63,218 nucleotides of DNA from an uncultured Erysipelotrichaceae bacterium (lineage in GTDB: Bacteria; Bacillota_I; Bacilli_A; Erysipelotrichales; Erysipelotrichaceae): NCBI GenBank assembly GCA_900315225.1, contig OMYM01000334.1, forward strand, positions 1 to 63,218, in the 5' to 3' direction. The position numbers and the translations under genes are program-made. Of the stretch, positions 12,286 through 25,251 are shown one piece after another (the stretch's first letter is position 1; each line of letters starts with the position of its first letter). The notes below the pieces were generated by a model. It was not told where the DNA came from, ran no database searches, and saw only the letters and a list, made by a program, of their open reading frames with translations.

Positions 12286-12293
12286 CATGCACA

Positions 12294-12324
12294 AAAGGCA
12301 AGAAGCGATATGCTTCTTGCCTTT
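12294..12324. terminator. Terminator of the giant repeat-protein gene
   Basis: A perfect 13-bp stem (AAAGGCAAGAAGC, loop GATAT). Read leftward it is followed by TTTTGT, just after the stop of the giant gene at 12333. Confidence 0.7.
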
Positions 12325-12332
12325 GTTGCGTA

Positions 12333-15300
12333 TTAGGCAAACACAAGATTAGGGTTACGACCAAACGTCAACCCCGGCACTTCATCTTGCTTGTAGATTC
12401 TACGAAGCAGGAAGTGAAGCTCATGCTTGTCGAGAATATCGTATTCTTTCATGAGTTCAGGATGTGCGTCAAACAATGTCTCGGTAGACATCTCCAGACC
12501 ATGGAATTGTCCAAGATCCAGCTCATCCTTGAGCTTTGTATAGTCTCTAGAATCAATGTCATAGAAACGCAAGACTGTCTTAGAACGGCACAAGACATGA
12601 CGTCCCCTCATCATTCTTTGCATGATCTTTGTTTCGGATCCTTCGACCCAGGCAAGCTGGGGATATTCGTCAAGGTGATAAATGGCGATAAAGTCTTTAT
12701 AGTATTCCGCAAATTGGGCAATGTCTGTTTGTTCCGTACACCTAGTCTTGAGGATGTAGTCTTCCATGACCTGCTTGTTTACAAGCAAATCCACGCCTTC
12801 CAGGCGCACAATGCTCTTGCGGCGATATTTCTCTATGCCCTCCTTTACGTTCTTTGGCGCATTGGGATCCTCTAGCACTCCCATCATATCCCTTGTGCCT
12901 TTCTTGTAGTACAACGCCAGGAAATTCAAGGTCTCTGCACTGATATTCATGAATCCCTGGTATGCATCGTCAGGTATGTTGTATGTCTGGTATACATGGG
13001 CAAGGCGATCCTCTTCCATCATATCGGTTCCATAATGTTCCAGACTTGCGACACGAAGCTCATCCGCGCCTTGTCTGACCATTGCCTTGACTTGTTGCAC
13101 ATCCAAACCAATGGTATCGCCGATCTGTTCATAGGAATCGCCGCCAAGGCAACGCAACAGAACTCTTGCCATGCGGTCATTGCCCATTTCCATGGCAACT
13201 ATTCTCGCTCTTGGAAGAACAATCGCATATCTTCCCTTTTTAACCGTTATATCATAATTGTCCAACATATCGCTGAGATATGTATAGAAGTCTCTTGGAT
13301 CGATGCCTGAAGCCTCGACAAGCTCGCTCTCGGTAAAGCTCTTGAGCGGATTGTTCTTAAGAACCTGATACACGGTGTTATCAAGGATAGCATCGGTTTC
13401 TTCGCTTGCGTTTAGATAATCCTCGCGCAAGTTGTTATAGTAGCGTCTGACATACACACTCGCCAAAGAAACCATGCCCTTGGCAAATGCATCGCAAAGC
13501 TCTTTCTCATAGCGTATGCCTTCCCTCGCCAAGGCATCAAAGTCATCCTGCGGCAAGGCAAATTCGTCTATGAGTCCTCCCTCGCGCTCAATATACTCCT
13601 CAAACGTTTCCTGCGGTTCATCCGCATATCTTTCGGCTTTCTCCTTGATGGAGAAGATCAAATCGTTTGCTTCGACCATATCCACATCGGGATAGCTGGC
13701 AAGTTGCCCTGAATAATACGCATCCATCAACTGGCTGTACAACACAATGCCATGGCTTGCCAAGGAATCATAGAGATCTTGCGTCGTCTCATCGACAATC
13801 GCATGGTCGCAATCCTCCAGATACTTCTGGACATTTTCATCCATTGGCTCGACAATCTCATTGACCACAAATGTCTCGGCATCATCCATGCCATAGTCGT
13901 TTAGCGGCGTGTCATCGGTGATCTCATCCACGACAAACGACTCCATGTCATCCAAGTCATAGTTGTACACCGGCAAGTCATCCATATTGATCGATGGAGT
14001 GTAATAATCGTTGCTTTCCTCTTTCTGTTCTTCGTCATCATCGTCAAAGAACGGTATTTGCATTTGTTGCGGCGCTTCTTCCTTGAACAGATTCTTCAGC
14101 GTCTCAAGGCCATCAAAGTCATACGGGAAGCCAACGTCTTCCATCTCCTCGTAGATGTCCTTGTATTTAGCAACAATGAGGTCGCGACAAGACGCAACGT
14201 TTGCCTTGCCCATGCCACGGGTATTCGTAAACGCATCTTGATCCTTCATGGCGGAAAGAAGATCCCCTTCGGTCACAATGGATAGCTTGGCAAGCAGGTT
14301 ATACGCGCGCGTAGAAAGAATATCCTTGTCATCTTCCAGCAAAGTGTCACGCATGCTTTCGATTCTCTCGCGGAAATCAGTCTTGATCTCCGTCTGTGGC
14401 AAGAATGATGGAATCTCCACTGGCGTGGAAGTCTTTGGCTCCACCACCTTCTCGCTGACAGGTTTCTCTTCCTCGGCAACTCTTTCCTCTCTTGCGCCAA
14501 TGGCATTGTCATACAACGCTTCCACTGCCGCAAGGTCTTGCCCATTGAATGGATATCTCAGATTATTGAGAATCCACCTATATTGGGCATATTTCTTATC
14601 CAGATACTCCTCGACCTGCTCCAAGGCTCTTTCACCCAACCCCTTGGCCAAGACAAAATCCTTGCCCTTGGAGAAATCATACAGTTCCCCATCCGTTGCA
14701 ATATTCAATTGCGCAAGGCTATAGGCAACCCTTGGACTCAAAGATCCAGGCGTAATCTTTTCGTTGCACTTATGCACAAGATCCGCAAACAGTACTTCCC
14801 TGATCTCTTTCTGGATATAATCATCGGATGTATTGCGCAACGTCTCTCTATCGTAGATCGCCGCCAAGTCGACATCATACACCGATCTTCTCTTCGAGGC
14901 ACTTTCCAAGGCATTCTCGAACAACTCCTCGATTTGCGACCAATTCCCTATCTCCAACGGATAAGACACTTCCTGCAACAAGCAAAGGATAGCACCAAAC
15001 TTGTTTCTCATATACTCCCCAAGATCCTCAGCAAGCTTATCGCCAAGGACACGGGACATCTCTTCCGTCTTCTGGGTCATTGCCTGAAAGACATCGCTGT
15101 CTTTCTTGATATCGTTCTTATACAAGATTCCCATGGCACGAGAAGTAAAGCGTTGTTCATCAATAGGCTCATCAGACACCTTGATGTACTCCTGCAAAAG
15201 CGCATCACGCATCATGTTTTCTGCCTGGGCATGTGACAAACCCTTCTTTTCCGCATCATGGTATGCCTTGCATGCCATTGCGGCAAGGTCTTTCAAGCGT

Positions 15301-18300
15301 GCTTGCTCAAGAATCTCCTCATGTACCTCTACTTCTTCTACGGGAGGTTCTTCTGGGATCACTTGAGGAGTTTCTTCTTGCGGCTTGGCACTTGTTAATT
15401 CAGATTTCTCTTCGAAGGGTGCTTCGATTGGCTGGTTTGTTTCCTCAGGCTGCGCTACTGGGGTTTCCTCGACTGGCTCACTTGTTTCTTCTGGTTGTTC
15501 CTGGGGAGCTTCCTCAACTGGTTCGCTTGTTTCTTCTGGTTGTTCCTGCGGAACTTCCTCGATTGGTTCGCTTGTTTCCTCAGGTTGTTCCTGGGGAGCT
15601 TCCTCGATTGACTCGTTTGTTTCCTCGGGTTGTTCCTGCGGGGCTTCCTCGATTGGTTCGTTTGCTTCCTCGATTGGCAAAAGAATCTCTTGTTCTGGAT
15701 CTTCCATGTCGCCAAAGAGCGACTTCAGATAGGAAAGCCCTTCGAATTGAACAGGGAATCCTTGTTCCTTCAGCTTCTCGTAGTGATACGCATAATACTC
15801 TTTGAAGTATTCTTTGATTCTTTCAATCGTTGCGGCTGCTATGCCTTTTTCGGACCTAAAGGCTTTCATGTTGGACATGGCCGAAAGGAGTTTTCTGTCT
15901 GTGTCATATCCAAGCTTCATCAAAGTGTGGTATGTCACGGGACTGAACATTTTTTCGTCTATTTGGGAGTCCAGCATTTCATCGATTGTCCATCCTTCAA
16001 TGACCTCTTGACCATCAAAGAGAGACTTGAGATATGTAAGTCCGACAAACTGGAGCGGGAAGCCCTGGTCTTTTTGATCCTCATAGAAAGGCTCGTAGTA
16101 GTCAGAGAAATATGAATCGATCTCTTCACGTTCTCTTTCATTGAAAGATGTGCCTTTGTCCATGATAGCCAAAAGGTCTTTGTCTTTTGCCACATGAAAC
16201 TTTCTTAGCGATAAAACAAGGGGACGGGAGAAACGGGAATAATCGATGGGCGATTCCAGCATTTCCGCAAGCGTTGGAATGTATTCTGTCTCGCCCAGAG
16301 CGACCATCAGGTAGTCTCTTCCAGGAAAGCCATCAGTTGCCTTTAGGCTGTCCAAAAGGTGGCTGTATCGTTTTACAAGGTATTCCTTGATGATATCTCC
16401 CGTTGCGCCACCAAAGCCATCTTCATATTCAAAGCCATGGTCTTTTTCCGCCAGTTTCAACAAATCGCCATCGGTTGAAACACCCTTGTTCATTAACACA
16501 TTATATAAGCGGAAACCGAGAGTCTTACGGCTGATCGGCATTTCCAGCATTTCCGCAAGGGTTTTGTTTTCAAGGTTTTCTTCGGTTGGTCCTTGGACTA
16601 GCGTGCCATTGTCAAATAGATTCTGCAGATATCCTAGGCCAGGGAATGATTCGGGGAATCCCTGTGCCTTCATCTTGGCGAACATTTCGGCGTAGCGGTT
16701 GCGGCAATAACCGTTGATATCACGAGCAAAGACACGAGCGTTGCCTGCGAATGACTTCAATGATTCAAAGTCTTCAAGTCTTTCCAAGAGCGCACGGTCG
16801 GTCTCGATTCCCTGTTCCTGCAGCACGTTCCAGGAGCGAGAAGCAAACCTATCTTTGTCCAATGGCGAATCCAGCAGTTTCTGTAGGTTATCGCCAACGG
16901 GCATCTTTAAATTATCTGATTGTTCATTCTCCGTTCTGACATGGAACACACGCATCATATAGCTTTGCCCTGGCATCGCCTCTGGGAAGCCTTTCTCTTG
17001 CATATTCGTGAAAAGATGGGCGTATCTCTTGCGTAGATGGGCATTGATGTCACGGATAAAGACACGGTCGTTTCCCGTCGCTGCCTTGAAGGATTCAAAG
17101 TCATCCAGTTTTTCCAAGAGCGCACGGTCAGTGTCGATGTTCAATTGTTCAATGTATCTTTTGGAACGTGAACTGAAGCAATCAAGTTCCAATGGGGAAT
17201 CCAACAACTCTTCCAAGGATTTGGCGGAATAGTCGATGAATGGATTTGCTTTCTCGGACGCAATGCCAAACAAGCCAAGCACATAGTCTTTTCCAGCGAA
17301 TTCTTTCTTGAAGCCTTCTTCCTTCATCTGTTCAAACACATGGACGTATCTGCGCTTGATAAAGCGATTGATGTCACGGATAAATACGTGGTCGTTATCA
17401 ATTGCTTCCTTGAAGGATTCGATGTCATCCAGTTTTTCCAGCAACGCACGGTTGGTGTCGATGTTCAGCTGCTCAAGGTATTTCTGGGAGCGGGGAACAA
17501 AGGACGCAATGTCCAATGGCGTATCCAGCAATTCTTCCAGCGACAATGAAGAGTAATCTACGGCAGGATGGATTTCTTCGGCTTGCACGCGGAACAAGCG
17601 GAACAAATAGTTTCTTCCCGCAAAATCATCTTTGAAGCCTTCTTTTCTCATGCGCTCGAATTCACGGATATATCTACGTCTTATATAGCCATTGATGTCG
17701 CGAATAAAGACACGGTCGCTACCTGTTTCCTGTCTGAATGCATCCCAATCCTGTAGCTGTTCGAACAATGAGCGGTCGGTCGTGATGCCCAACTGTTCCA
17801 GGTAGCCTTGCGAACGAGGGCTGAATTCATCTAGCACAATCGAAGAATCCAGTAGCTCGGGAAGTGTCATCAAGGCAATGTCGCGTTCTGTTTCCGCTGT
17901 CGCATCGGTATCTTGTTCTTCCTGGGGAAGGACGACCTTGAACAGCTGCAGTATGTAGTCTCTGCCTGGGAATGTATCCTTGAAGCCATCTTCCTTCATC
18001 TGCTCAACCGCATGGGCGTATTTGTCGCGGATGTAGTTGTTTATGTCGCGCACAACAACGCGATCACTGTCGATGGATGCCTTGAAGGATGCCATGTCTT
18101 CCAGCTTCGCAAACAATTCCCCATCGGTAGAGACACCCATTTGCTCGATGTAGGACTGGGAGCGAACGCAGAAACGATCAGTCTCAAGCGGGGAGCCTAA
18201 TAGCTCAGATAGCGTCATCGATTCATAGCCTGGTACTTCTTCGTCCTGCTCAATATGCACCTTGAAAACATGCAAAAGATAATTTTTTCCAACAAATGTT

Positions 18301-21284
18301 TCGCTGAAGTCATTTGCCTTCATCAATTCGAAAGCATGGGCATATTTTTCCTTGATATAACGATTGATGTCGCGGGTAACAATACGATCATTGCCTGTCG
18401 CTTCCTTGAACGAATCTACGTCTTCAAGTCTTGTGAACAAGTCTCTATCGGTCGCAATTTCCAGATGTTCCATGCTTTCTCTGGTGCGCAAGGAAACTTT
18501 CTTTTCTTCCCAAGGTGAATCCAGCAATTCTTCCAGGGACATGGTGGCGTAGTCTAGTTTTTCACCATCATCTTCCAGGTCGATACCGAAAAGACGCAAA
18601 ACGTATTTTTTTCCAGCAAGCGTATCATCGGCTTGCATTTCTTCAATAACGTTGCCGTATTTGTGTCTGATGTATCCATTGATTTCACGGGTAACGACAC
18701 GGTCATTGCCAATGGCTTCCCTGAATGATTCTATGTCTTCCAATCTGGCGAAAAGGACATGGTCGTTTTCAATGCCTAGGCTTTCTAGCAAGCTACGCGT
18801 CCTTGGACAGAAGAAGCCTGGGTCGAGCGGGGAATCCATCAGCTGGGCAAGGGACATGCCCGTGTAGTCGATATCGAGTGGCTTGTCGTCCTCGTCCTCT
18901 TGCTTGACGTAGAACAAACGTTTGAGAAAACCAATCGCCGCAAAGGACTCTGGGAAGCCATCGGGTCCTAGTTGGTCGTATATGCCTTGGTAGCGTTTCT
19001 CGGCATATTCCTTGACTTCGTTTATGATATTGCGCGATACGCCAGGCAAGGAACGGAAATCAGCCATGTTGGACACTGCCTCGAACAAGTCGCGGTCGGT
19101 ATATATCTCGTTGCGCAACAGGGTGACGTATGCCCTTGGCGATAACATGAAATAATCCAGGTGCTGTCCAAGCATCTTCCTAAGGGAATATTCTGCGTAG
19201 TCATTATCTCTGTCGCCAAGCAATCCCTTGAGATATGGCGATCCCTTGAAACGCAGCTTGGAACCATTCGCCTTGACTTGTTCGTATGCCTCGCCATAGC
19301 GTTCCTTGAGGTAGTCATTGATCTGTTCGCATGTCGCATGGGTGACTTTTTCGTGTTTAGCAAATTCCTCGTAGTCGCTCAATACGCGGAATAGGTCGCG
19401 GTCGGTCACGACATTCATTTCGCCTAAAGCCTTGATGCTAGCGTTGCTAAAGTATGAAAAATCGACTGGTTCGCCAAGCATAGAATCCATGGATATAACA
19501 AAAGGTTTTACCTCGATGCTTTGCAAGGCGTTTGCCTTGGCTTCCTGCAACTGACTAATCAATTGCGACAATTCATCGTTCTTTTCGATCGGGAACGTGA
19601 TATTATCTGCCAACGCAAAAACATCATGGTATCTATTTTCTAGGTAAGACTGTATCGAATCGATGGTTGTTATGCCAATCCCAGGGATTTCCAGCAGCTT
19701 GTCGGATTTGTATAGCGTATATAGCTCATAATCATGGAATATGCCTTCCTTGGCGAAAACCCTAAGGTTTTTCTTATTGATCTCGCTCATGTCGATAGCT
19801 TCGCCACGAATGGCGATCAAGCCGCATGAAAGCAATTCTCTAGCAGTATCGGTTGCCTTTTCCTGCTCTATGCCTCGCTCCAGCATAGAAGCGTATGCTT
19901 CGTTTGCCTGTTGAATGGCATCGCGGCTTGGGTCATAGGCAAACCCGCCCGTCTTTGTTTCGTTAAAGACATCCGTGAATACATCGCCATAGGCAAAAGA
20001 AGCGGGGAAGCCTTCCTTTGCCATGGCTTTGTAGGTCTCTTCATAACGCTCCCTAATGTATTGGCGCATGTCATTTATGATTGCCTTGTCGCTTTCTTCT
20101 CCCGCTTGCATGTAGGCAAGAAGAGCTTCGTCTGTCTCTATTCCCTTGGCCGCAAGAGCATGCCTAAGGCGGGGAGTGGCGCAACCATTGATCTTAGAAG
20201 CCAAAAGGTCTAAAAGGGATTCGCCTTTGCGGGAAGTCACCTTGGCCTTTGGGTTCTTGTAGAGTCGTTCTAGTTTCTTTTCATCGTTTTCGCTGAAAGG
20301 GAATGTCATGGTTTGCAAGGCATCCAGCACATTTCCATATTTTTCCTGCAGGTATTCACGCATCAAGCGTCCTGACTTATGGCCAATGGCGCGCTGCTGT
20401 TCAAAATCAGGATCTTGCAGGCGGCGGAACAAGGCACTGTCAGTATTGATCTTTTGCTCTGTCATGGCAGTGTATGTACGACCGGCAAGTGTTTCGATGT
20501 CAAGGCGTTCCTTGCTCAGGTCGATGAGTTGGGCCACAATGGCCAAGCGGATGTCTTCTTGTATCTCTTCGCTCGGCAACAAGATAAATGCATCGTCGTT
20601 GAACACTTTCTTCGCCGTTGCGACATACGGGGGATCTGCCTCGTCTTGCGGCAATTGCGTCATGCCAAACGGTTCAACAAATGGCGCAAGAGGACCGGCA
20701 GCCTGGAAAATAGAAACGATTTCGTCTCTTGTTAGATCAAGACTGGTTTCTTCAATCCTTGAAAACAACTGCCCATAGCGCGTGGAAAGATACTCTTCGC
20801 ATTCCTTTGCCAAGGCATCGTCAAAGTCTGGTTGTTTCTTCAAGGAAGAAACATTGCTTTCAAGCTCTTGCGCCAATGCGCCATCGCTTTCAATCATCAA
20901 GCGGGAAAGAATCTCCTTGAGTCCTTCAGACATGTCTTTGGTATCGATTTGTTCCCCGACCCTAAGCAACATGTATACCTTGATGGTTCTTCTTGCCATA
21001 GCGAGGATGCTTGCCTCGCTATGGCCGGCAAGCTTTTCCTTGATGCATGCGATGCGTTGCGACAAGCGCTTTGCTTCTACTTCGTAGTGAAGGTAATCGT
21101 ATGCCTTGTCTATCATCTCCAGGGCTGTCTTGAAATCCAGTTTCAATGACTGGACAAGATCGTCCGTGCCTGCCTCCGCTACGCTTTCGAGGGTGTCGTA
21201 TCCCCTGCGCAGCATTTTATTCGCTTCCGCCTTGGACACCCCTAGCACTTCTTGAAATATTTTCTTTATATCGTCATTTCCCAT
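12333..21284 (-). CDS. Giant alpha-CTD/HhH-like repeat protein with C-terminal HTH segments
   Basis: A single uninterrupted 2,983-residue reading frame, acidic and without signal peptide or membrane span, so cytoplasmic. Residues ~13-65 look like a helix-hairpin-helix (KAEANKMLRRGYDTLESVAE). From ~258 a unit of about 107 residues recurs: an LLDSPL lead, then FSPRSQGYLEQLGITTDR, a LEDxxSFK segment, a DRVFIRDIN segment, a Y-rich helix, then GFxxxFxGxxYLxxLF. I count 15 copies to ~1,860 and three more at ~2,050-2,420. The R..x.L...gI.T..dL.....g.....I...L pattern resembles the RNA polymerase alpha C-terminal domain; one copy has IPGIGITTIDSIQSYL (~530). A Pro/Glu/Gln tandem linker (~1,870-1,990) separates the blocks. 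The last ~300 residues include a winged-helix-like segment (~2,635-2,688) and a sigma-region-4-like HTH (YEQIGDTIGLDVQQVKAMVR, ~2,715). AAAGGAG precedes the ATG. Function is not known; a nucleic-acid or RNA polymerase scaffold is inference. Confidence 0.85.
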   Translation of the reverse strand: MGNDDIKKIFQEVLGVSKAEANKMLRRGYDTLESVAEAGTDDLVQSLKLDFKTALEMIDKAYDYLHYEVEAKRLSQRIACIKEKLAGHSEASILAMARRTIKVYMLLRVGEQIDTKDMSEGLKEILSRLMIESDGALAQELESNVSSLKKQPDFDDALAKECEEYLSTRYGQLFSRIEETSLDLTRDEIVSIFQAAGPLAPFVEPFGMTQLPQDEADPPYVATAKKVFNDDAFILLPSEEIQEDIRLAIVAQLIDLSKERLDIETLAGRTYTAMTEQKINTDSALFRRLQDPDFEQQRAIGHKSGRLMREYLQEKYGNVLDALQTMTFPFSENDEKKLERLYKNPKAKVTSRKGESLLDLLASKINGCATPRLRHALAAKGIETDEALLAYMQAGEESDKAIINDMRQYIRERYEETYKAMAKEGFPASFAYGDVFTDVFNETKTGGFAYDPSRDAIQQANEAYASMLERGIEQEKATDTARELLSCGLIAIRGEAIDMSEINKKNLRVFAKEGIFHDYELYTLYKSDKLLEIPGIGITTIDSIQSYLENRYHDVFALADNITFPIEKNDELSQLISQLQEAKANALQSIEVKPFVISMDSMLGEPVDFSYFSNASIKALGEMNVVTDRDLFRVLSDYEEFAKHEKVTHATCEQINDYLKERYGEAYEQVKANGSKLRFKGSPYLKGLLGDRDNDYAEYSLRKMLGQHLDYFMLSPRAYVTLLRNEIYTDRDLFEAVSNMADFRSLPGVSRNIINEVKEYAEKRYQGIYDQLGPDGFPESFAAIGFLKRLFYVKQEDEDDKPLDIDYTGMSLAQLMDSPLDPGFFCPRTRSLLESLGIENDHVLFARLEDIESFREAIGNDRVVTREINGYIRHKYGNVIEEMQADDTLAGKKYVLRLFGIDLEDDGEKLDYATMSLEELLDSPWEEKKVSLRTRESMEHLEIATDRDLFTRLEDVDSFKEATGNDRIVTRDINRYIKEKYAHAFELMKANDFSETFVGKNYLLHVFKVHIEQDEEVPGYESMTLSELLGSPLETDRFCVRSQSYIEQMGVSTDGELFAKLEDMASFKASIDSDRVVVRDINNYIRDKYAHAVEQMKEDGFKDTFPGRDYILQLFKVVLPQEEQDTDATAETERDIALMTLPELLDSSIVLDEFSPRSQGYLEQLGITTDRSLFEQLQDWDAFRQETGSDRVFIRDINGYIRRRYIREFERMRKEGFKDDFAGRNYLFRLFRVQAEEIHPAVDYSSLSLEELLDTPLDIASFVPRSQKYLEQLNIDTNRALLEKLDDIESFKEAIDNDHVFIRDINRFIKRRYVHVFEQMKEEGFKKEFAGKDYVLGLFGIASEKANPFIDYSAKSLEELLDSPLELDCFSSRSKRYIEQLNIDTDRALLEKLDDFESFKAATGNDRVFIRDINAHLRKRYAHLFTNMQEKGFPEAMPGQSYMMRVFHVRTENEQSDNLKMPVGDNLQKLLDSPLDKDRFASRSWNVLQEQGIETDRALLERLEDFESLKSFAGNARVFARDINGYCRNRYAEMFAKMKAQGFPESFPGLGYLQNLFDNGTLVQGPTEENLENKTLAEMLEMPISRKTLGFRLYNVLMNKGVSTDGDLLKLAEKDHGFEYEDGFGGATGDIIKEYLVKRYSHLLDSLKATDGFPGRDYLMVALGETEYIPTLAEMLESPIDYSRFSRPLVLSLRKFHVAKDKDLLAIMDKGTSFNEREREEIDSYFSDYYEPFYEDQKDQGFPLQFVGLTYLKSLFDGQEVIEGWTIDEMLDSQIDEKMFSPVTYHTLMKLGYDTDRKLLSAMSNMKAFRSEKGIAAATIERIKEYFKEYYAYHYEKLKEQGFPVQFEGLSYLKSLFGDMEDPEQEILLPIEEANEPIEEAPQEQPEETNESIEEAPQEQPEETSEPIEEVPQEQPEETSEPVEEAPQEQPEETSEPVEETPVAQPEETNQPIEAPFEEKSELTSAKPQEETPQVIPEEPPVEEVEVHEEILEQARLKDLAAMACKAYHDAEKKGLSHAQAENMMRDALLQEYIKVSDEPIDEQRFTSRAMGILYKNDIKKDSDVFQAMTQKTEEMSRVLGDKLAEDLGEYMRNKFGAILCLLQEVSYPLEIGNWSQIEELFENALESASKRRSVYDVDLAAIYDRETLRNTSDDYIQKEIREVLFADLVHKCNEKITPGSLSPRVAYSLAQLNIATDGELYDFSKGKDFVLAKGLGERALEQVEEYLDKKYAQYRWILNNLRYPFNGQDLAAVEALYDNAIGAREERVAEEEKPVSEKVVEPKTSTPVEIPSFLPQTEIKTDFRERIESMRDTLLEDDKDILSTRAYNLLAKLSIVTEGDLLSAMKDQDAFTNTRGMGKANVASCRDLIVAKYKDIYEEMEDVGFPYDFDGLETLKNLFKEEAPQQMQIPFFDDDDEEQKEESNDYYTPSINMDDLPVYNYDLDDMESFVVDEITDDTPLNDYGMDDAETFVVNEIVEPMDENVQKYLEDCDHAIVDETTQDLYDSLASHGIVLYSQLMDAYYSGQLASYPDVDMVEANDLIFSIKEKAERYADEPQETFEEYIEREGGLIDEFALPQDDFDALAREGIRYEKELCDAFAKGMVSLASVYVRRYYNNLREDYLNASEETDAILDNTVYQVLKNNPLKSFTESELVEASGIDPRDFYTYLSDMLDNYDITVKKGRYAIVLPRARIVAMEMGNDRMARVLLRCLGGDSYEQIGDTIGLDVQQVKAMVRQGADELRVASLEHYGTDMMEEDRLAHVYQTYNIPDDAYQGFMNISAETLNFLALYYKKGTRDMMGVLEDPNAPKNVKEGIEKYRRKSIVRLEGVDLLVNKQVMEDYILKTRCTEQTDIAQFAEYYKDFIAIYHLDEYPQLAWVEGSETKIMQRMMRGRHVLCRSKTVLRFYDIDSRDYTKLKDELDLGQFHGLEMSTETLFDAHPELMKEYDILDKHELHFLLRRIYKQDEVPGLTFGRNPNLVFA
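14050..20510 (-). repeat. About 18 coding tandem repeats of an alpha-CTD-like domain
   Basis: The segment encoding RDIN and its equivalents recurs near 16713, 17042, 17366, 17691, 18041, 18361 and 18681, that is every ~320-350 bp. Units near 17.0-18.7 kb are the most alike; outer units are diverged, with identity kept at the RS/R..YL, T-D-x-x-L, D-I-N-x-Y-I and G-F positions. This pattern suggests recent expansion from the centre. Confidence 0.8.
15420..15672 (-). repeat. 45-bp tandem repeat encoding a Pro/Glu/Gln linker
   Basis: Five full copies of a 15-residue unit (EPIEEAPQEQPEETS and variants) plus a degenerate tail lie between the two blocks of alpha-CTD-like repeats. The unit is acidic and proline-rich, as expected for an extended flexible spacer. 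Copy number is likely to vary between strains by slippage. Confidence 0.85.
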
Positions 21285-21570
21285 TTTTGGCCAACTCCTT
21301 TATTTGATCTAACGATGAAAAACATATAAAAACCAATTCTGCCAAACCACAAAAAACCAATGTTTCGACATGTATCGATATTCGGATGAACGCATAAAAT
21401 CAACAGCCAAGCCATTGATAAAACAGGATAATCTCTTGAATGAAGCGTGTGTTTCGATTTTTCCAGTCTTTCACCCAAGATTATTTTAACACAGTTCATT
21501 TATAACGCAATGCAAAAATCATTCTTCTCCCCGCAGCAATCGCAAACAAAAGAATGCCTTGCGACGAAAC
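21285..21570. other. Upstream region of the giant gene
   Basis: An intergenic stretch of about 290 bp. On the minus strand AAAGGAG lies about 10 bases before the giant ATG, and TTGATT, 17 bp, TATCGA near 21400-21370 is a weak candidate promoter. No other gene or repeat is evident. Confidence 0.4.
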
Positions 21571-21599
21571 ATGGCGCTGTGGCATTGCCACAGCGCCAT
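21571..21599. terminator. Terminator of the LRR/CAP surface-protein gene
   Basis: A perfect dyad (TGGCGCTGTGGCA and its complement), 8 bp past the stop of the leftward surface-protein gene. The T tract after the stem is short, so termination may be incomplete. Confidence 0.65.
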
Positions 21600-21606
21600 A
21601 TTTTAA

Positions 21607-24600
21607 CTATCTTTTGCGTCTTGTCAAGACACCTGTTTTCTCATCGAAGTAGTATTCCTTGCCTTCGATGGTCACCCATCCCTTGGACATTTGCCCGGTC
21701 TTCAAGTCGTAGTAGTAGGTGTTTCCCTCTTGCTTGGGATATAGCTTTGCTTCATCATCAACAACGTTGTACCAACCTTTGATCATCTTTCCCGTGTTGT
21801 CGTAGCGCACCCACTTTCCTTCCTTGTTCTTGCCTTTCTTGAGGTCTTCCTGGTAGATGTATGGCATCCATACTTCCTTGCTTGATGCCTTGGCTCCATC
21901 GTATATGCAATCAAGCCAATACCATCCATCGGACTCAGGGTCATAGATTTCCCTGCCTCTTTCCTTGCCATATACTTCATCCCAGATGTTCTTGGGATCG
22001 CCTTTCACTGCCTGGCGCTTTCCTTTCTCAAACCAATAATCTTTTCCTTCATACGCACAGAAGCCAAATACACGGCAATAGGCAGGGTCTTCCTGTGGCT
22101 CGACAGTGATATCGACCGTGATGCTCTTGCCATCGTATTGGGCTTTTATCACGGCCACACCTTGGCTTGCGGCGATAAGCTCTTTACCCTCGACATAGAC
22201 GATTGCCTCATCGCTGGAAGAAAGAACAGCTTCCACTTCTTCATCGTCTTCATATACTGTCAACATCTGTCTTTCGCCAACCTTCATTACAGCGTTAAAC
22301 TCCCCAAAAGACAATACGCCAATATCGACGACGGTCAAGTCAAAGGAATCTTGCAATCCATCCACCCTGGCATATATCGTTGCTTTGCCAGGATTCCTGG
22401 CAAAGACATACCCCGCCTTGTCAACGATCGCCACGTATGTGTCGCTAGACGCAAACACCACGTCTTCTTCACTTGCTCCAACAAGCGCCAGATTGATCTC
22501 CTGGATTTCCCCAACACGCATCTTTTGGCGTGGCTCGACAATCCTCAAGCTTGACTCTATCTTTCCTTCCACAGTCAAGACAAAGGAATCCTTTGCGCCA
22601 TGGTATGTTGCGCTAATGATCGTTGTCCCAGAATTTCTCGCATAGACAACGCCACTCTCCGACACCTCAGCAACCATCTTATCACTTGAAGCATATTCAA
22701 CGACACCATCCGCCAAGACATTGAGCGTCTGCCTTTCACCCACCTTCATTTTTAGCAAGGGATCGATGATCCTGACCTTTTCCGAGGCAGGAGTGACGAT
22801 AATCTCGTGGAACACCGAGGCATTGCCTGCGGTGGCGGTGATCACCGCCTTGCCTTCCGCCATGCCTGTCACAAAGCCATCCTGATCGACAAACGCCACT
22901 TCTTCGTTGGACGAAGAGAACACCACCTTTAGTTCCTCATCCGAAACCACCTGAACATCCAGTTCTTTTCTTTCCCCCACCCGAATCTCATCAAAGGGAT
23001 TGATGAAAAGAATCTTCCTGACGACATTATTGCCTTGCTCGACATCCACATGGATGTTAAAGGAAACGGTATCATCGCTCAAGTTCCTCGCAATGATTTC
23101 CGTTGGTCCCTTCTTGATGCCGTAGATCATTCCGTTTTCATCGATTTCACAATGTCCGTTGTCTGTCTCATACTTGAAAGATTTCGCAAGAACCGGGTTT
23201 TCCTGCACGCCATTGGCGATACGGAAAGAAAGCAGGCGTGTCTCTCCTGTCTTTAGCGTCAGCCTGTTTTCCACCAGCCGCGGCGTGCCGTTTCCCTTGA
23301 TCCCATGCACTTCATACGTCTTTACGTCAATGTCCGGCCGTTCCTTGAATACGGCTTGCTTAGAAGAAAAATCCTGCGTCCAGTAGATATGGTCTTCAAC
23401 GATGAATATCCCAATGCCCACGCTATTCCAGCGATCATCCAGGATCTGCCTGCGGTGGGCGGTGGAATTCATCAGGATGTTCATCGCCTCCTTGGCATCC
23501 CTAGCGCCATACACGATGTTTTCCGCCTCGGCGCCATTGCCCAAAGTGCCAAAGGAAGTGCCATCGGGACGCGTGTGGCTCCAATACACCGATAGCTCGC
23601 CAGCACGCAACATCGCCCCCTCCAACAATGATTCATCCATAGCAAGCGCTCCCAGCCCATATTTCGCCCTTTCCTGATTGAGAATGTCCAGACACTCATA
23701 CGCCATGGAAAAATCCCTGCTGCCCATGACAAACCACGTCACACACTCCCTGGCATACGAACGAGTCGCTTCATCGATGCACACCATTCCAGCCGGAGGA
23801 GTAAACGTCTTTTCAATCGGCGTTCCCCGAAAAGCATTCGCCCGAATCTCATTGAGCGAATTAGGCAGATTGACTTCCTTGAGGACACCATCCCCGTCAA
23901 ACGCCTTCTTCCCAATGACCTTGATCTTCGCGGGAAGCGTAACCTTTGCTAGCGAGAGATTCCCCGCAAAGCTGCTTTCACCAATCTCCCCAAGCGCTTC
24001 ATACCTGGAAAGATCAATGCTGGAAAAACCACATCCACTGAAAGCGCTATCTCCAATCGTTGCGACATTCGCCGATAGCTCGACATTCTTCAACAAAGCG
24101 TCCTCCAGACACAACCCTCTGGGAATATCCGCCATGGCGTTGGCGAAATTCACCCTAGCAAGCGATGGCATGTTCGCCAACGCCTTCTCATCCATCGTTT
24201 CAACCGATGCAGGAATGTCAAGGGATGAAATGGACGTATACGCAAACGCCATCTCCCCGATCCGCCTGACATTTCCCAAATCAACGCCAGTCAAACGCTC
24301 TGCGTTGACAAACGCACACCTGCCAATGGCATCCACGAAGGAAGGAACCGTAAAACTAGACAACGATGAATTAGGCATATACATGACCAGCGTCCCCGTG
24401 TCCTTGGTATACAGTTGGTTATCGATGACCGTGTAGTATTGGTTCTCGCTTGGCACTGTAACGGAACGCGCGCGGTTTGTCAATTCCTTATCTGATAGCG
24501 CTAGCGGGGAAAACCGCCGCATCGCTTTCGGCATTTTGAAGTCAACAATCCCCAATCCCTGCAAAGCATAGTCTTCTATCTCCGCCAAAGAATCAGGCAA

Positions 24601-25071
24601 GACAAGATCTCTCACCTTTGCGTCACACAACCCACTCCTGCCGATAAACTCCAAGGTATCCGGCAGCGAAAGATCCCTCAGTTTCTTCATGTACGCCAAA
24701 CCATACCCCTCGATCCGCTTGACCCCACGAGGAATGGTCAACGACTCCACCACCGCATCCCCATAGAAAGCCATGAAGCCTATGGTCGTAACCGGCTTGT
24801 TCCCTAACATGCTTGGTATCATTAGCGATACCTGATCGCCTTCATATCCCGTGACAATTGCTTCCTCGCCCTTGATTTCATACAAAAGACCAGTGACATC
24901 CTTATATTCATCCTGTGGCTTATCGACGACTTCTGGCACATTGGACTCAACATCATACTGCGACAATGTCTCGTATCCCCGCTCGATTTCCCCAACCCCA
25001 TTGCTCGCTGTCAATGGATTCAAATTCCCCAGCAATCCCAATGCCAGGAAAAGACTCATTACCTGTTTCAT
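21607..25071 (-). CDS. Secreted BspA-LRR / CAP / Big2 surface protein with wall-binding-like tail
   Basis: 1,154 residues from an ATG preceded by AAGGAG (25071); the longer upstream reading lacks a ribosome site. An N-terminal signal sequence (MKQVMSLFLALGLLGNLNPL) is followed by BspA-type leucine-rich repeats (~50-440, e.g. SLTIPRGVKRIEGYGLAYM), then a CAP/SCP domain (~460-577, LNQERAKYGLGAL, WSHTRPDGTSF, STAHRRQILDDRWNSVGIG). About five Big2-like Ig domains follow (~600-1,000), and a tail (~1,005-1,154) rich in G, W and Y (GREIYDPESDGWYWLD, KEVWMPYIYQ, GKWVRYDNTGKMIKGW, GNTYYYD). The same tail ends the lectin protein at 56173. LRR, CAP and Big domains suggest host or matrix adhesion; no sortase motif is present, so the tail probably anchors the protein. 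Confidence 0.9.
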   Translation of the reverse strand: MKQVMSLFLALGLLGNLNPLTASNGVGEIERGYETLSQYDVESNVPEVVDKPQDEYKDVTGLLYEIKGEEAIVTGYEGDQVSLMIPSMLGNKPVTTIGFMAFYGDAVVESLTIPRGVKRIEGYGLAYMKKLRDLSLPDTLEFIGRSGLCDAKVRDLVLPDSLAEIEDYALQGLGIVDFKMPKAMRRFSPLALSDKELTNRARSVTVPSENQYYTVIDNQLYTKDTGTLVMYMPNSSLSSFTVPSFVDAIGRCAFVNAERLTGVDLGNVRRIGEMAFAYTSISSLDIPASVETMDEKALANMPSLARVNFANAMADIPRGLCLEDALLKNVELSANVATIGDSAFSGCGFSSIDLSRYEALGEIGESSFAGNLSLAKVTLPAKIKVIGKKAFDGDGVLKEVNLPNSLNEIRANAFRGTPIEKTFTPPAGMVCIDEATRSYARECVTWFVMGSRDFSMAYECLDILNQERAKYGLGALAMDESLLEGAMLRAGELSVYWSHTRPDGTSFGTLGNGAEAENIVYGARDAKEAMNILMNSTAHRRQILDDRWNSVGIGIFIVEDHIYWTQDFSSKQAVFKERPDIDVKTYEVHGIKGNGTPRLVENRLTLKTGETRLLSFRIANGVQENPVLAKSFKYETDNGHCEIDENGMIYGIKKGPTEIIARNLSDDTVSFNIHVDVEQGNNVVRKILFINPFDEIRVGERKELDVQVVSDEELKVVFSSSNEEVAFVDQDGFVTGMAEGKAVITATAGNASVFHEIIVTPASEKVRIIDPLLKMKVGERQTLNVLADGVVEYASSDKMVAEVSESGVVYARNSGTTIISATYHGAKDSFVLTVEGKIESSLRIVEPRQKMRVGEIQEINLALVGASEEDVVFASSDTYVAIVDKAGYVFARNPGKATIYARVDGLQDSFDLTVVDIGVLSFGEFNAVMKVGERQMLTVYEDDEEVEAVLSSSDEAIVYVEGKELIAASQGVAVIKAQYDGKSITVDITVEPQEDPAYCRVFGFCAYEGKDYWFEKGKRQAVKGDPKNIWDEVYGKERGREIYDPESDGWYWLDCIYDGAKASSKEVWMPYIYQEDLKKGKNKEGKWVRYDNTGKMIKGWYNVVDDEAKLYPKQEGNTYYYDLKTGQMSKGWVTIEGKEYYFDEKTGVLTRRKR

Positions 25072-25251
25072 GATCAACTCTCCTTCTATGATAAGTTTTT
25101 TAAACATCAGCGTGATTTTACTATATTTATTAACCGTCAAAAAGAACATGCACATCCATAATATAACCCGTGAAATTTCGCTTAAATTATACATGATGAT
25201 GATTTCTGCGCAAGAATAATTATGCAAGAAACATGGCAACGTGGTTAAGAC

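Follow-up and report, generated by a model that had tools for sequence, protein, structure and literature searches.

A protein of 2,983 residues from an uncultured Erysipelotrichaceae bacterium carries about twenty copies of a helix-hairpin-helix (HhH) module that sequence profiles trace to the C-terminal domain of the RNA polymerase alpha subunit (alpha-CTD). They precede a region homologous to a family of ~900-residue proteins that harbor alpha-CTD, sigma-region-4 and winged-helix modules. In a tentative reading that has almost an even chance of being right, this giant is a lineage-restricted member of that family acting as an acidic, protein-recruiting scaffold, the N-terminal alpha-CTD-like module of the family having been multiplied, in this proposal, to about twenty copies.

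The window, i.e., the whole stretch of 63,218 nucleotides that was analysed (contig OMYM01000334.1, assembly GCA_900315225.1), holds the gene and its signals as follows.

12333..21284, minus strand: repeat-protein gene, with an ATG start and no internal stop
21295..21300, minus strand: ribosome-binding site AAGGAG, 10 nt before the ATG, by direct reading
12289..12329, minus strand: hairpin just past the stop codon, between the giant's gene and the convergent pyruvate kinase gene (folding z -5.87)

A sequence-only reading made earlier had described one frame of 2,983 residues at 12333-21284 and gave no strand. The frame is real and lies on the minus strand, where it runs from an ATG at 21284-21282 through 2,983 codons (2,983 residues) with no internal stop, while the plus strand read from 12333 contains many stops. 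The ribosome site announced in that reading is present (AAGGAG, 21300-21295), and its terminator is borne out as far as the strong hairpin is concerned (-24.5 kcal/mol, z -5.87), whereas a strict terminator scan at the 3' end passes no site. Eighty-five bases separate the end of the gene from the convergent pyruvate kinase gene. The upstream neighbor, on the same strand, codes for a surface protein of the leucine-rich-repeat/CAP/choline-binding kind (21607-25239, minus strand; 1,210 aa, with BspA leucine-rich repeats, CAP, Big_2 and choline-binding repeats). It is followed by a stem-loop at 21571-21599, which the scan lists as a plus-strand terminator, and a minus-strand sequence resembling a promoter, TTGACA-16-TAAAAT (21627-21600), precedes this stem-loop, three promoter-like sites having been found for 1.0 expected. 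The giant's gene would form a single-gene transcription unit. As had been claimed, the product has no secretion signal: neither a hydrophobic N-terminus nor a membrane span was detected, the highest 19-residue Kyte-Doolittle mean being 1.14.

The protein is organized into the following modules.

21105..21254, minus strand: N-terminal helix-hairpin-helix, residues 11-60 (Pfam HHH_5, 1.1e-5)
20724..20957, minus strand: alpha-CTD-like unit, residues 110-187 (iterated self-profile, 3.5e-21)
15714..20528, minus strand: 15 contiguous alpha-CTD-like units, residues 253-1857 (self-profile; AlphaFold2 of three)
15285..15695, minus strand: acidic linker rich in Pro and Glu, residues 1864-2000, with a net charge of -44 (charge computation, tandem repeat)
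14085..15182, minus strand: three spaced alpha-CTD-like units within residues 2035-2400 (self-profile; Pfam)
13620..13799, minus strand: probable further alpha-CTD-like four-helix domain, residues ~2496-2555 (helix order in the model)
13221..13403, minus strand: winged helix, residues ~2628-2688 (model; VIA-align)
13032..13208, minus strand: degenerate sigma-region-4-like helix-turn-helix, residues ~2693-2751 (alignment to relatives; model helices)
12336..13016, minus strand: remaining conserved C-terminal region, with further winged-helix-like modules (secondary-structure reading)

The array was delineated by iterating a self-profile from one seed unit, whose final round recovered 19 units with scores between 5e-36 and 3.5e-21, the profile then being built on those same 19 units. 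The seed alone, with no iteration, found 16 units at E<=0.1, and 20 of 20 composition shuffles that kept the seed returned nothing else, versus 19 units in the real sequence. One unit lies at residues 110-187, 15 are contiguous from 253 to 1857 with start-to-start spacings of 95-133 residues, and three fall within 2035-2400. Two further domains bring the total to ~21. The first, at residues 11-60, matches HHH_5 at 1.1e-5 (26.2 bits, just below the cut-off of 27) and, in the PDB, RadA (2bke, 7.8e-4), then weakly NusA chains (0.07-0.22). The second, at ~2496-2555, is missed by the unit profile and is probably alpha-CTD-like, judging from helix order in a model whose blocks between residues 2500 and 2549 reach pLDDT 92-96. 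The repeat array of the sequence-only reading therefore stands, its count of about 18 giving way to 19 by self-profile and ~21 with these two domains; the peptide that it had quoted, IPGIGITTIDSIQSYL, is present in the translation.

At the DNA level, Tandem Repeats Finder reported just two stretches, the linker with its 45-bp unit and a segment in which a 324-bp stretch holds 2.1 copies at 72%, indicating that most units are far diverged. The linker itself is coded by 5.5 copies of its 45-bp repeat (15424-15671), a likely site of length variation. The proportion of silent differences over all unit pairs has a median of 0.78, i.e., is saturated, and the nearest pair (59% identity) has Ka 0.28, Ks 1.30 and a Ka/Ks of about 0.2, values that show purifying selection between these two coding units. 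Each unit harbors an extra stretch of ~30 residues with the consensus GFPxxFxGxxYLxxLF, and the seven central units (residues 811-1557) share a motif peculiar to them, [DA][RH][VI]xxR[DE]IN, which suggests one common partner surface.

Pfam detects RNA_pol_A_CTD in the giant at 6.6e-14, the best stretch being residues 2323-2360. Taken singly, just four of the 19 match PF03118 at E<=1, with 0.0021 as the best value, which shows that the units are highly diverged; a phmmer search of the PDB with the whole protein returned nothing at E<=0.1. When the 19-unit profile, which holds no RNA polymerase sequence, was run against the PDB, the first 15 matches were all RNA polymerase alpha chains, at 8.9e-5 to 0.068 (1doq, 8.9e-5, and 1z3e, 8.8e-4, at the top; also 3ihq and 3gfk), and hhalign of this profile with nine rpoA CTDs gave a probability of 94.9. 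Three contiguous units were modeled with AlphaFold2 from an alignment of non-overlapping unit triplets, five rows of which came from the giant itself (mean pLDDT 77.6, pTM 0.37); in this model the single units are fairly trustworthy and their mutual placing is not. RNA polymerase entries made up 37 of the 50 rows listed by Foldseek, all at E-values above 1; the first row was a designed PPR protein and 13 rows were not RNA polymerase. With VIA-align they made up 39 of the first 40 rows, with Z up to 6.9 (a Z below 8 may denote a common arrangement, according to the tool's own note), an rmsd of 2.2 Å and 66 aligned residues, the first and third modeled units being covered. BAF and others are also found among the structural matches. 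A viral structure library yielded nothing at E<=0.001, although its weaker rows include three phage proteins labeled 'RNA polymerase, alpha subunit, C-terminal'.

The alpha-CTD family call made in the sequence-only reading thus holds, on the PDB profile matches, the hhalign probability and the two modeled units that align to alpha-CTD structures, and it is the sequence profile rather than the fold match that makes it firm. Profile and predicted structure agree in giving the unit an alpha-CTD (HhH) fold, and descent of the repeats from alpha-CTD is shown at the level of sequence. The giant resembles the RNA polymerase alpha-CTD (PF03118) in unit fold and sequence signature; it differs from alpha in that no alpha N-terminal domain is among the 11 Pfam families listed for it at E<=1, and its units differ from alpha-CTD by the added ~30 residues and by the loss of most DNA contacts.

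This loss was gauged at R265, N268, C269, G296, K298 and S299, which we take to be the DNA-contact set of the E. coli alpha-CTD and whose numbers were mapped onto the units via profile alignments. Among the 19 units of the giant, the contact residue is present at R265 in 14, at N268 in three, at C269 in none, at G296 in six, at K298 in two and at S299 in one. The corresponding counts in the short family are 130, 122 and 38 of 146 units for R265, N268 and C269, and 115, 83 and 90 of 137 for G296, K298 and S299, a comparison that leans to canonical units since these were gathered with the alpha-CTD model. Most canonical DNA-contact residues are thus shown, by alignment, to be lost in the giant. 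Parts of the surface are retained in some units (R265, G296, K298 and S299 in unit 253; R265, N268 and G296 in units 1575 and 2316; R265 and G296 in units 2035 and 2174), so that some DNA contact is possible there. R265 is kept in all seven units of the central block and may perhaps be kept for structure. The protein has a pI of 4.59 and a net charge of -235, and the net charge of each of the 19 units is zero or negative.

The last ~360 residues are read as a chain of winged-helix, sigma-4-like and winged-helix-like modules. Their homology to the ~900-aa family is shown by alignment, e.g., at 4.6e-34 to a frame of 1,064 aa in a genome of the same genus. A model of residues 2490-2983 built with 39 relatives reached a mean pLDDT of 85.1 (mostly below 50 at ~2568-2631). 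VIA-align, whose rows for this model cover mainly the first winged helix, superimposed the latter on ZBP1 (chain 9j89_D; Z 10.8, rmsd 1.6 Å, 63 aligned). In four of five relatives Sigma70_r4 scores 1.4e-8 to 2.4e-4 or better; for the giant no sigma family is listed, and its region-4-like segment was recognized by alignment and model. The recognition helix of the relatives, R-E-R-x-R-Q, reads V-Q-Q-x-K-A in the giant, which keeps none of the five conserved residues (R in 39, E in 36, R in 38, R in 36 and Q in 39 of 39 relatives), one of the changes, R to K, being conservative. When conserved columns were defined as the 30 with one residue in at least 36 of the 39 aligned relatives, the giant kept 19 of the 25 outside this helix, and one of eight in the whole sigma-4-like module; it also kept eight of the 11 columns that are invariant in the 39. 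A YDIxDxxELHxLL-type motif is present, in which H has replaced Y and F has replaced N. Other sigma-4 columns and Y465 are changed too, and the loss is therefore not confined to DNA contacts.

By these residue counts both DNA-contact surfaces, that of the units and that of the sigma-4-like helix, are largely gone; the remainder is better kept, though altered too. The sequence-only reading had seen in the giant a DNA- or RNA polymerase-binding organizer of the nucleoid or of transcription, an inference that does not follow from the likeness to alpha-CTD, and a nucleoid or UP-element organizer is disfavored by the sequence: the contact set is mostly lost, the sigma-4-like helix is replaced and the pI is 4.59. 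A multivalent DNA binder, whose HhH units would wrap or bridge DNA as a nucleoid organizer or coat promoters and UP elements, is rather unlikely. It draws on the HhH fold, on the retention of the R265 position by 14 of the 19 units and of G296 by six, and on the precedent of Methanopyrus topoisomerase V with its 12 tandem (HhH)2 domains, a long tandem HhH array like that of the giant (PMC9489208). Set against it are the disappearance of N268, C269, K298 and S299 from most units, the acidity of the protein (net -235) and the replaced recognition helix. The giant also differs from topoisomerase V in that its units are acidic and of alpha-CTD rather than generic HhH descent, and no topoisomerase family is among the Pfam families listed for it at E<=1.

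The giant shares with its ~900-aa relatives the C-terminal homology and the order of domains. In contrast to the giant, the relatives mostly have two or three detected alpha-CTD units and reach 1,311 aa at most, their RERxRQ helix is near-invariant (39 aligned), and they continue for ~330 residues beyond the point where the giant ends (four measured). Among 77 family rows of at least 700 aa, which include some genes fetched twice, two units were found in 39 rows, three in 18, none in 15, one in four and five in one; these counts are lower bounds, because the alpha-CTD model alone misses most units of the giant, detecting one to six of the 19 (four in the last round). The five-unit row is a 1,164-aa protein of a Treponema bin (L107:2846-6340). 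The family was found at 68 loci in named genomes, most of them, going by their titles, of Bacillota; the others include two spirochaete bins (L107, L108) and a Succinivibrionaceae bin (L096), and a Winogradskyella record (L143) matches in the sigma-4 part only. A viral contig from IMG/VR carries a relative of the C-terminal region (L144:6001-6852; 9e-31, 27% identity). The giant's own genome has a second member of 1,074 aa, on a 4.7-kb contig and with an intact TRERVRK helix, and a third of 532 aa (L011:820-2418, minus strand, contig C161), in which residues ~109-313 align to several units of the giant and which has two unit-like stretches, an altered sigma-4-like helix and a truncated C-terminus. 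No name for the family emerged from PADLOC (two members), NCBIfam (six members) or paper searches, and in the literature, as covered by titles and abstract openings with few subscription journals, no description was found of such an array or of an alpha-CTD/sigma-4 family.

The neighborhoods of the short family were compared at 81 loci, i.e., 14 plus 67 of the 68 in named genomes (L100 duplicates L043; own-genome loci and L008, L009, L012, L045, L046 and L059, mostly duplicates, were left out). The family gene was found at E<=1e-5 in 80 of them. Within four frames of it, at least one recurrent, BLAST-linked neighbor occurs in 45 of these 80 loci and none in 35, the clusters being of ~370-600 aa (36 loci), ~520-870 aa (19) and ~130-370 aa (16), plus two linked ones of ~235 aa and ~350-440 aa in the same six loci. 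Annotation was tried on example loci only. HEPN_Swt1 and HIRAN neighbors were found in L008 (contig shared with L076), SNF2 helicases in L047, L049 and L058 (the last outside the BLAST clusters), two of these loci also showing a PLD-like domain in Pfam, and RloB/AbiLii and AAA/AbiLi neighbors in L051; PADLOC gave PbeA, ZorD and PLD-helicase matches in both of the SNF2 loci on which it was run. Neighbors of ~410 aa may be ParB-like, by their motif; Pfam found nothing in three and NCBIfam nothing in one. A 1,401-aa protein adjoins the alpha-CTD/sigma-4 gene and a HIRAN gene (L059:2413-6618), and the same frame at L008:14413-18618 matches nothing in Pfam at E<=0.01. A group recurs in L047, L049, L058, L008/L076, L050-L054, L056 and others, in which the family gene and a neighbor of ~410-575 aa are accompanied by HEPN_Swt1 (L008), by SNF2 helicases with a PLD-like N-terminus, or by HIRAN or AbiL-like pairs; it looks like an unnamed defence-type system.

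This setting bears on a distinctly unlikely alternative, in which the giant, an RNA polymerase mimic, would act in phage defence either as a bait or as a guard, titrating or sensing phage factors that take over the host polymerase. Its bait form is less probable still, ranking as very unlikely: about twenty alpha look-alikes, largely devoid of DNA contacts, and a blunted sigma-4 look-alike would soak up phage proteins or trigger a response. R265 is the sole contact kept in most units, and in seven of seven of the central block, and PMC2988021 reports that Alt and ModA of T4 modify Arg265 and that AsiA binds sigma region 4. The recurrent neighbors of the short family (45 of 80 loci), defence-type in the examples tested, are consistent with such a role, as are weak matches, far below the cut-offs, of the relatives' sigma-4 to MzaA and of their alpha-CTD units to PglW. 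PglW of type 2 BREX has an alpha-CTD-like domain followed by winged helices, as in the giant's family, and differs by its nuclease and kinase domains, according to PMC12839542; MzaA of the MZA system (NCBIfam NF041931) has a sigma-4-like segment, again as in this family, and the giant itself matched neither in NCBIfam. Conversely, the giant is flanked by the pyruvate kinase and surface protein genes, with no defence-type neighbor, and matches none of the PADLOC-DB 2.0.0 families at E<=0.01; R265 is possibly structural; and the sigma-4-like module is degenerate, with one of eight conserved columns.

The array itself was found in one genome only. The search for orthologues that the sequence-only reading had proposed returned, with the unit profile, no second array in 395 class, 315 order and 272 family genomes, sets that overlap and for which the number of candidates scored in each genome was limited. 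Weak matches at class level were mostly rpoA-sized frames (~315-345 aa), a few others including frames of 465 aa in G133, 738 aa in G376 and 494-495 aa in G038 and G043. Plasmids and phages gave no whole-protein orthologue, and six exact peptides, a search that reaches close relatives only, had no match in genome and viral contigs. A profile built from residues 2628-2983 together with five relatives matched in 12 of the 395 class genomes besides the giant's own at E<=1e-15, the weaker matches listed being apparently mostly sigma-4 of RpoD-sized frames, and among the 70 genus genomes a single further one had matches, all of the C-terminal type. In ten same-genus genomes whose pyruvate kinase is 60-64% identical, the stretches around that gene gave no convincing unit match; four of these stretches stop, or were cut, about 1 kb or less from it. 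The bin is a metagenome assembly flagged as 9% contaminated, of 5.2 Mb versus 1.3-4.0 Mb in other same-genus genomes. Judging from pyruvate kinase identities, the contig fits it fairly well: among 23 same-genus genomes identity is 60-67% in 15 and 42-43% in seven, with no match in one, and it is 44-48% in 16 genomes of the order's other family.

No such array turned up in searches of 70 genomes of the genus and 272 of the family, which indicates that the giant is not a core factor. This argues against a transcription-machinery scaffold whose units would bind RNA polymerase, or regulators that touch alpha-CTD, without DNA, and so change global transcription. The alpha-CTD descent of the units and an N-terminal HhH nearest to RadA and then, weakly, to NusA favor that idea, which we regard as unlikely. 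A decaying or selfish expansion devoid of function is hardly credible: it would fit the confinement to one genome and the missing C-terminal ~330 residues, and is opposed by 2,983 codons with no stop, by the Ka/Ks of about 0.2 between nearest units and by the preserved ribosome site.

In the protein-recruiting scaffold that we tentatively prefer, the array would recruit proteins multivalently through small helical binding modules strung into a soluble, acidic chain, and the C-terminal winged-helix chain would be the sensing or anchoring end; such a scaffold would have descended from a DNA-binding protein, and would not be an UP-element or nucleoid binder. The analogy is with NusA, for which two reports describe acidic repeat domains, AR1 and AR2, the second being a double HhH that binds proteins and recruits alpha-CTD, SuhB, NusG and lambda Q (PMC6614801, PMC7171158). 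NusA differs by having two repeats to the giant's ~20, and the sequence match is weak (E 0.07-0.22) and confined to the N-terminus of the giant. The finding shows that a fold familiar from RNA polymerase, where the alpha-CTD serves as a transcription module, can undergo amplification into a giant array, and an array from which most DNA-contact residues have been removed offers a clear test of what else this fold binds. The giant also points to a widespread, unnamed alpha-CTD/sigma-4/winged-helix family that lies near recurrent, partly defence-type genes (45 of 80 loci).
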